The notes below the pieces were generated by a model that saw nothing but the letters and a program-made list of their open reading frames with translations, had not been told where the DNA came from and did not search any database. From a virus: DNA of 45,615 nt. The DNA is taken from positions 1-45,615 of IMG/VR virus record IMGVR_UViG_3300022200_000088; one strand, 5' to 3'. Positions 23,906 to 25,114 of this stretch are shown here, piece by piece. How positions within the stretch are numbered: position 1 is the first letter of the stretch; each line of letters starts with the position of its first letter. Position numbers and translations under genes: made by a program.

Positions 23906-23921
23906 CATTAAATAAGTTAAG

Positions 23922-23952
23922 CAGGTTGTTATTAATTTGACAGCCTGTTTTT
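23922..23952 (+). terminator. Rho-independent terminator
   Basis: CAGGTTGT (23922-23929) pairs with ACAGCCTG (23940-23947) with one G-T pair, followed by five T. It ends the 21.3-23.9 kb unit just before the structured RNA. Confidence 0.85.
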
Positions 23953-23956
23953 CTTA

Positions 23957-23965
23957 TGTTATAAT
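23957..23965 (+). promoter_or_regulatory. Extended -10 promoter for the structured RNA
   Basis: TGTTATAAT ends seven bases before G23972, the first paired base of the RNA stem. No clear -35 box because the terminator occupies that space. Confidence 0.75.
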
Positions 23966-23971
23966 ATAAGT

Positions 23972-24056
23972 GTCCCCATACAGGCCTACGCTTAGGATGG
24001 ATTAGTTACCTATTTTACGACCGTGGCCAACGTGCATGAATTGCCTGTGTGGGGGC
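23972..24056 (+). ncRNA. Unassigned structured small RNA (about 85 nt)
   Basis: The predicted 5' end (GTCCCCATACAGGC, 23972-23985) pairs over 14 positions with GCCTGTGTGGGGGC (24043-24056), using two G-U pairs. The 57-base interior holds smaller possible stems (TAGG/CCTA at 23993-24012) and the palindrome TGGCCA. It has its own promoter, follows a terminator, and contains no ORF or ribosome site. It is not a tRNA: there is no T-loop. I cannot match it to a named family. Confidence 0.65.
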
Positions 24057-24069
24057 ATTCTTCTATCTA

Positions 24070-24078
24070 TGCTATAAT
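24070..24078 (+). promoter_or_regulatory. Leaderless-type promoter for the Dps-like gene
   Basis: Extended -10 TGCTATAAT, then six bases, then ATG at 24085. Confidence 0.82.
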
Positions 24079-24084
24079 TTAAAT

Positions 24085-24510
24085 ATGGATAAACTATTAA
24101 AAGAATTGCTATCTGAGACCGTCGCTCTTAGATTTAAAGCACAGGGATATCACTGGAACATTGAGGGTATTAACTTTCAACAGTTCCACGAGTTATTCTC
24201 AGACATATATAATCAGTATGAGTCAGGTATTGATTCACTAGCAGAGTGGTTAAGAAAATTAGGCTTCTTAGCTCCTAGCGATCTCCTATCATTTTATAAT
24301 GACAGTACAGTAACAGAGTCTATCTCAGGTACAAACGGTCTAGCCATGGTGACAGATTTGCAGAACTCTAACTATCTAATGATTGAGAAGTTCAGCAATG
24401 CTGTAGACCAAGCTACAGAGATGAAGCAACATGCCCTTGCAAACTTCTTTGCAGAGCGTATGGATGCTCATCAAAAAATTGAATGGCAGCTAACTGCCAC
24501 AACTAAGTAA
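24085..24510 (+). CDS. Dps-like ferritin
   Basis: A 141-residue four-helix protein. H23-W, H35, D50 and E54 (YHWNIEG, FHELF, DSLAE) have the exact spacing of the intersubunit ferroxidase site in bacterial Dps. Dps proteins oxidise and store iron and protect DNA from peroxide. Starting at the leaderless ATG gives a normal Dps N-terminus; an upstream in-frame extension would run through the promoter and RNA. No basic DNA-binding tail is present. Confidence 0.88.
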   Translation: MDKLLKELLSETVALRFKAQGYHWNIEGINFQQFHELFSDIYNQYESGIDSLAEWLRKLGFLAPSDLLSFYNDSTVTESISGTNGLAMVTDLQNSNYLMIEKFSNAVDQATEMKQHALANFFAERMDAHQKIEWQLTATTK

Positions 24511-24520
24511 AGGAAAATAA

Positions 24521-25114
24521 ATGCCAAAAGGTAAAGGATCATATAGCGTAGGATCAAAGGGTAGCAATGGCTGCTCAGGATACCCAGTAGTTGGTGGAGA
24601 AGGTAAAGTTCATGGTTGCCACCCAACTAAAGGTGCAGCTATGGCACAAACTCGTGCTATTTATGCAAGTGAAAATGCAAAGAAGTCTGTCACCATCTCA
24701 GATCTAGAGAAGGCAATGGTTTCAGAGGGTGACTTTGTCATTGCCTCATGCGATGATGAGATCTATATTGGTCGTGTAGAGTATGTAATGACTACTGGAT
24801 CTTTAGGTATTCCTGGCTCAGAATACTATCTAGAGGCCACCAGTGACGCTCCAGGGGTACTTCTACGCACCCTTGAGTTCGAAGAAGAAGGACAATACTG
24901 GGAAGAGACTGCCTACCTTATTGGGGTAGCTGCAAGTGAAGTAACAAAGATTGCCCCACTACCATTAGAGGTAGAAGTAGACGTTATTGAACTTAATGGA
25001 CAGATGTCTATGCAGATGGAAGATAAGGCTGACACCCTTCTTGGAACCATGACCTTTGGTAAAGATTATACTAAGGCGGCACGTCAGACCTATCAGGCAG
25101 ACTCAAATGGCTAA
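24521..25114 (+). CDS. Head-associated protein with prohead-type N-terminal motif
   Basis: The N-terminal segment with VHGCHPTKGAAMAQTRAIYASE is the short HGCH...Q..A.YASE motif often attached to prohead protease or portal-region proteins. The rest is a beta-rich, acidic domain (GDFVIASCDDEIYIGRVEYV...), then the tail TFGKDYTKAARQTYQADSNG. That FGKDYTKA peptide recurs at the end of the next protein. AAAGGAAA precedes the ATG. A structural or assembly role is inferred; no protease triad is visible. Confidence 0.6.
   Translation: MPKGKGSYSVGSKGSNGCSGYPVVGGEGKVHGCHPTKGAAMAQTRAIYASENAKKSVTISDLEKAMVSEGDFVIASCDDEIYIGRVEYVMTTGSLGIPGSEYYLEATSDAPGVLLRTLEFEEEGQYWEETAYLIGVAASEVTKIAPLPLEVEVDVIELNGQMSMQMEDKADTLLGTMTFGKDYTKAARQTYQADSNG

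Follow-up and report, generated by a model that had tools for sequence, protein, structure and literature searches.

A segment of about 90 nt in a virus record (IMGVR_UViG_3300022200_000088) lies behind the terminator of a holin-like gene and ahead of a Dps/ferritin-like gene, and its sequence predicts a structured transcript without an open reading frame. Does this segment encode an RNA in its own right and, if so, what does that RNA act on? We addressed both questions by computational analysis of the whole 45,615-nt stretch (45.6 kb), here called the window, and of related loci in viral, bacterial, and cultured phage sequences.

A structured RNA gene and its relatives

The first-pass annotation had proposed an isolated RNA gene with a 14-pair stem enclosing a 57-base interior; sequence and fold show these coordinates to be correct (Table 1), and the pairing can be extended to 23969-24059. 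The extended -10 promoter that it predicted proved stronger than claimed, with 12 of 12 consensus matches, including a TTGACA -35 box, in addition to the extended -10 TG. The preceding terminator was located, and the independent promoter ahead of the next gene was found as a second -10 element, 6 nt before the ATG of dps (24085-24510, a Pfam Ferritin match), a spacing consistent with a leaderless gene. The terminator and the RNA promoter overlap (23919-23965), such that the -35 box lies inside the terminator loop. The window gene at 24521-25111 has no match in Pfam or PHROGs; its family, with starts MPYSVGEKGSYGCSGYP or MPKGKGSYSVGSKG, frequently supplies the gene that follows the RNA (also in L049, L050, L051, L052, L069, and L071).

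Table 1. Features of the RNA locus in the window
Feature	Position	Strand	Basis or remark
RNA gene	23972-24056, possibly 23969-24059	+	fold, covariation, relatives
Terminal stem P1, 5' arm	23972-23985	+	fold, stem covariation
Terminal stem P1, 3' arm	24043-24056	+	fold, stem covariation
Intrinsic terminator of upstream holin-like gene	23919-23950	+	13-bp stem and T run
Sigma-70 type promoter of the RNA	23937-23965	+	TTGACA 23937-23942, 17-nt spacer, TG and TATAAT 23960-23965
Predicted antisense segment 1a, CUUAGGAUGG	23991-24000	+	complements actinobacterial 23S rRNA 1920-1929 (E. coli numbering)
Unpaired joint AU	24001-24002	+	opposite 23S U1917-A1919, H69 loop; length and sequence vary in relatives
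Predicted antisense segment 1b, UAGUUACC	24003-24010	+	complements 23S rRNA 1909-1916
Candidate antisense segment 2, GCCAACGUGC	24026-24035	+	complements 23S 1964-1974 with mismatches; strong in relatives, weak in the window
-10 element and leaderless Dps/ferritin-like gene	24073-24510; -10 at 24073-24078, ATG 24085	+	neighbor, outside the RNA

The RNA fits no named family that we searched. Rfam 15 covariance models, including those of 6S RNA, gave no match to the window RNA at the gathering or the relaxed threshold and only tRNAs at 14 other loci, and no tRNA or tmRNA was found at the locus by ARAGORN or Rfam. These results agree with the annotated absence of an open reading frame and a tRNA T-loop from the interior, and neither an mRNA leader nor a tRNA variant came up as a match. 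The minimum free energy of the window RNA, -37.2 kcal/mol against -27.7 ± 3.4 for shuffles (z = -2.8), is by itself moderately unusual; the proof of an RNA gene is its conservation.

Dps homologues in three viral contigs, retrieved via the protein, have the same RNA upstream, and matches to the core pattern rose from 30 to 71 to 93 viral loci as the pattern was loosened. The RNA is a family that occurs in hundreds of bacterial-virus sequences, not a singleton. Sixteen viral records each hold one copy, and GTDB bacterial genomes yielded five pattern matches, all apparently chance occurrences in coding sequence. The first-pass annotation had named compensatory changes in the stems of relatives as a check, and these were found: across 33 non-redundant aligned relatives, 13 of the 14 pairs change on both sides, 95.7% of stem cells pair, and none of 500 shuffles reaches any of five covariation measures, with slid controls collapsing. 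The core is invariant over the same 33 sequences while the stem varies by compensation; this invariance is partly ascertained, because many loci were found by a core-containing pattern, and the Dps-neighbor loci and the Streptomyces set were found without it. No conserved interior helix appears in the family alignment, and the interior is therefore free for pairing in trans.

The usual layout of the main class is -10 element, stem, core, second motif, and stem. Across relatives, about 46 of 51 loci have the -10 hexamer at a fixed or nearly fixed spacing from the stem. Some classes adjoin tRNA genes or sit in tRNA clusters. The version of the RNA in L026, L072, L073, L075, L082, L088, and L090 lies in a tRNA neighborhood and has an additional internal hairpin; in L026 and L072 it is found behind a tRNA-Ile, near a terminase gene. 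Taken as a whole, we regard it as virtually certain that 23972-24056 is a free-standing RNA gene.

Complementarity of the core to 23S rRNA helix 69

The block that is invariant across the family, CUUAGGAUGG-AN-UAGUUACC, which reads CUUAGGAUGG-AU-UAGUUACC in the window, is the reverse complement of actinobacterial 23S rRNA 1920-1929 and 1909-1916. We found the target, 5'-GGUAACUA-UAA-CCAUCCUAAG-3', in Streptomyces, Tsukamurella, and Actinomyces records. Helix 69 (H69) belongs to the decoding center and forms the central bridge linking the 50S subunit to the 30S; the two target stretches are its two sides, and the loop residues between them are left unpaired (1917-1919 for the window RNA, about 1914-1919 in others). 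The two arms, 1-5 nt apart in the main classes, are conserved. The joint that faces 1914-1919 is variable and hardly ever a full complement: among about 160 pattern-matched loci, only that of L276 is one. The RNA of L276 (1489-1509) complements E. coli-type 23S 1910-1929 perfectly over 20 nt and is followed by a terminator. A resemblance to the 16S 790 loop was dropped after the longer 23S match was found.

The bipartite match of the window RNA to Streptomyces 23S comprises 18 nt, compared with a mean of 11.9 and a maximum of 15 in 400 shuffles. For 17 representative RNAs, net cofolding with 23S 1900-1984 gave -17 to -36 kcal/mol against shuffle averages of about -5 to -9, an energy that counts the opening cost of both partners and ignores ribosomal proteins and rRNA modifications; all 17 preferred the 23S type of their own lineage. 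When folding costs are omitted, duplex energy ranks the H69 window first in only about half of the tested RNAs and second for the window RNA. We consider H69 very likely to be the target, and the predicted pairing with it is well supported; the RNA is encoded away from this target and its complementarity exceeds chance, as expected of a trans-acting antisense RNA. Because the core is complementary to a highly conserved working part of the host ribosome, ribosome binding during infection is probable, and we infer that the RNA is expressed and bound in the cell. Among the functions suggested by the first-pass annotation, the antisense and ribosome-targeting parts are thus upheld, with the core predicted to be antisense to H69, and the RNA-polymerase decoy is not.

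At 23S 1920-1925, the E. coli type reads CGGUCC versus CCAUCC in Actinobacteria. Relatives of Proteobacteria phages have CUUAGGACCG...UAGUUAC, which fits the CGGUCC form, and a search for RNAs fitting E. coli-type 23S recovered CTTAGGACCG-TT-TAGTTACGG at 9 loci. The scan for CTTAGGACCG..TAGTTACC, intended as a second negative control, gave 62 loci, so that one chimera alone, CTTAGGATGG..TAGTTACGG, serves as a clean negative, with 0 matches in the viral collection. Fifty-eight of the 62 share one core, CTTAGGACCG-GTAC-TAGTTACC, and form a new class whose final C is mismatched at 23S 1909 and whose added hairpin has a covarying stem and a loop, UUCGCUAC, complementary to 23S 1930-1937. The tested contigs with the GACCG form, in both groups, encode T4-like DNA polymerases nearest to those of Sinorhizobium, Agrobacterium, and enterobacterial jumbo phages, and the nearest relatives of tested contigs with GGAUGG RNAs are Streptomyces phages. 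As read from these comparisons, in which the host lineages of metagenomic phages come from the protein neighbors of a few contigs, the RNA allele follows the host 23S allele. The proteobacterial class (L123-L131, L241-L302) also has a hairpin, GGC-GGCUGCU-GCC, whose loop varies in some members; its GGCUGCUG complements the 16S 530 loop (519-526), a match that is within chance for one RNA and that we note as a lead.

In the cultured phages Moab, Wofford, and Wakanda, the best H69 complement of each genome falls at one syntenic site, an unannotated gap of ~150 nt that follows the endolysin gene; a -10 element precedes it and an intrinsic terminator follows. Taken by itself, the Moab score of 13.5 is close to the values of up to 13 that unrelated jumbo phages give as background; what supports the Moab case is synteny and homology. 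Using the Wakanda RNA as a blastn query, we found a homologue in 127 cultured Streptomyces phage records, of which all those inspected are Stanwilliamsviridae. In phage Coruscant (NC_070782.1), the RNA is placed at about 24700-24830, likewise downstream of the endolysin gene. Both arms are retained in most of 17 inspected homologues; the joint that faces the H69 loop is different in almost every genome inspected. No homologue was found in the proteobacterial jumbo phages GAP32 and Phosso or in part of Atu_ph07.

Many relatives have additional segments complementary to 23S 1929-1941, where UUCGC-type elements match, and to 1961-1975; these are weak in the window RNA. When the core is masked, 1949-1988 emerges as the top-ranked window over all 23S (mean of 67 members, z = 5.2). 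Under the strict gapped-alignment scoring of these scans, the match to 1960-1983 reaches p < 0.05 in 14 of 20 representatives and is not significant for the window RNA (p = 0.11). L103 contains a 14-nt exact complement at 23S 1966-1979 and is colinear in antisense with 23S from about 1909 to 2012; there are hints of pairing to 1990-2012 in L103, L077, and the Streptomyces set. The segments are ordered aT1-aT2 in the main class, including the window, and aT2-aT1 in L103, L101, L107, the tRNA-cluster class L098, and the Streptomyces phages. By their sequences, the two orders are circular permutations closed by the terminal stem, which suggests that the antisense set was rebuilt more than once.

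Possible consequences of pairing at helix 69

We propose that the gene produces a free phage RNA of ~85-90 nt, in which the covarying terminal stem would hold the interior open as a presenting loop. Two arms (10 and 8 nt in the window) would pair with the H69 sides 1920-1929 and 1909-1916, respectively, leaving the loop portion unpaired, and relatives would add pairing at 1929-1941 and 1961-1975. H69 is folded in mature ribosomes, and pairing therefore requires an assembly intermediate or strand invasion; the RNA would meet 23S before, or in spite of, H69 folding. Invasion of H69 would then prevent newly made host 50S subunits from maturing, or the two subunits from joining, in the infected cell. 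The reading that we consider probable is an antisense RNA, encoded by the phage, that invades H69 and most likely blocks 50S assembly or subunit joining; inhibition seems a reasonably likely effect of the RNA. Pairing at H69 would be harmful in principle, since an anti-H69 PNA inhibits E. coli (review PMC7038079).

The same pairing could instead help the ribosome, an explanation we consider unlikely: by contacting helices 69-71, the RNA would be an rRNA chaperone, or a shield or splint against host ribonuclease toxins that keeps ribosomes usable for the phage. Chaperone snoRNAs pair at several separate sites, which the multi-site pairing predicted here recalls; helix 71 lies between the target segments 1909-1941 and 1961-1975, and large phages with tRNA clusters sustain translation. 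H69 is also a ribonuclease target, being cut in another setting (PMC13189344). However, a paired H69 is unable to bridge the subunits, which should leave the bound ribosome inactive, and we saw no conserved toxin or repair partner beside the RNA.

The conserved arms and the variable, almost never complementary joint would also suit a guide RNA, whose arms pair while a few H69 loop nucleotides bulge for a modifying or cutting enzyme, as in a simplified bacterial H/ACA RNA. The loop left exposed is the modified part of H69. The site of TlyA is located in H69 (PMC12805891). We nevertheless judge a guide function improbable: no H/ACA-like upper stem lies between the arms, the exposed nucleotides differ among classes, and no conserved protein partner was seen. 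A gene for a Ro (TROVE) protein occurs in 1 of 23 RNA-bearing viral records, many of them fragments, and the bacterial Y RNA/Ro system was rejected as a candidate. Ro proteins are encoded alongside the RNA in the L103 contig (G010:58275-59141) and in Streptomyces phage Moab (gene 106), and in this lineage Ro is a possible partner of the RNA.

It is very improbable that the invariant core is a protein-binding site whose resemblance to 23S is coincidental. The complementarity is a computed one, but it exceeds shuffles in both the bipartite match and the cofolding energy, a second target lies next to the first, and the allele shifts with host lineage. We give slightly less credence to the bulge serving just to prevent a perfect duplex of >20 bp, an RNase III substrate, in an otherwise plain antisense RNA; this variant of the antisense reading explains the joint only. 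The solitary full complement in L276 speaks for it, and in sequence it looks the same as a guide. Finally, a leader or riboswitch of the downstream gene can hardly be meant: the RNA does stand immediately ahead of dps in the window and also in L002-L004, but downstream genes vary among loci, dps has its own -10, the RNA is absent from more distant dps loci, and the sequence behind it reads by eye as the end of a convergent gene in L017, L018, L019, L022, L024, L039, and L043.

Returning to an antisense RNA against H69, we lean cautiously towards the broader view that small RNAs directed at the host 23S rRNA serve phages in no fewer than two host phyla as sequence-specific weapons or guides, tuned to the rRNA allele of the host and gapped so that the H69 loop stays exposed. 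If this is true, pairing of a phage RNA directly with rRNA is itself a means of attacking or steering the ribosome, one of which we found no description, and the unannotated gap, conserved across 127 records of cultured Streptomyces phages, gains a function. Because a homologue is present in cultured phage records, the proposal is immediately testable.

Comparison with known RNAs

In the mainly open-access literature within reach, no comparable RNA was found; we know of no earlier description of one targeting H69, and this RNA is absent from Rfam. The T4 stable RNAs C and D were rejected as relatives, having no homologue here and no shared complementarity to 23S 1909-1975. The snoRNAs U8, snR30, and snR190 have several separate segments complementary to one rRNA domain, and the phage RNA likewise is short with several segments against one such domain; they are, however, eukaryotic RNPs with C/D or H/ACA boxes, and none of these boxes, nor the upper stem that H/ACA RNAs have between guide arms, was seen in the phage RNA. 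6S RNA mimics promoter DNA and binds RNA polymerase. Like 6S RNA and Ms1, the phage RNA is small and structured and presumably acts on a core machine of the host; unlike 6S RNA, it has no promoter-like helix and no Rfam match.

Among phage RNAs, c4 of P1 and P7 is also structured and has complementary stretches shown in loops, but it silences the phage ant mRNA (PMC12197685), whereas the window RNA is free-standing and matches host 23S rRNA. The closest likeness in target is synthetic: an anti-H69 PNA (Kulik et al. 2017, as cited in PMC7038079) is directed at the same helix and inhibits E. coli growth. That oligomer is man-made, and the phage RNA is its apparent natural equivalent; if our reading is true, nature already offers an antisense route to helix 69, at which drugs and PNA are also aimed.
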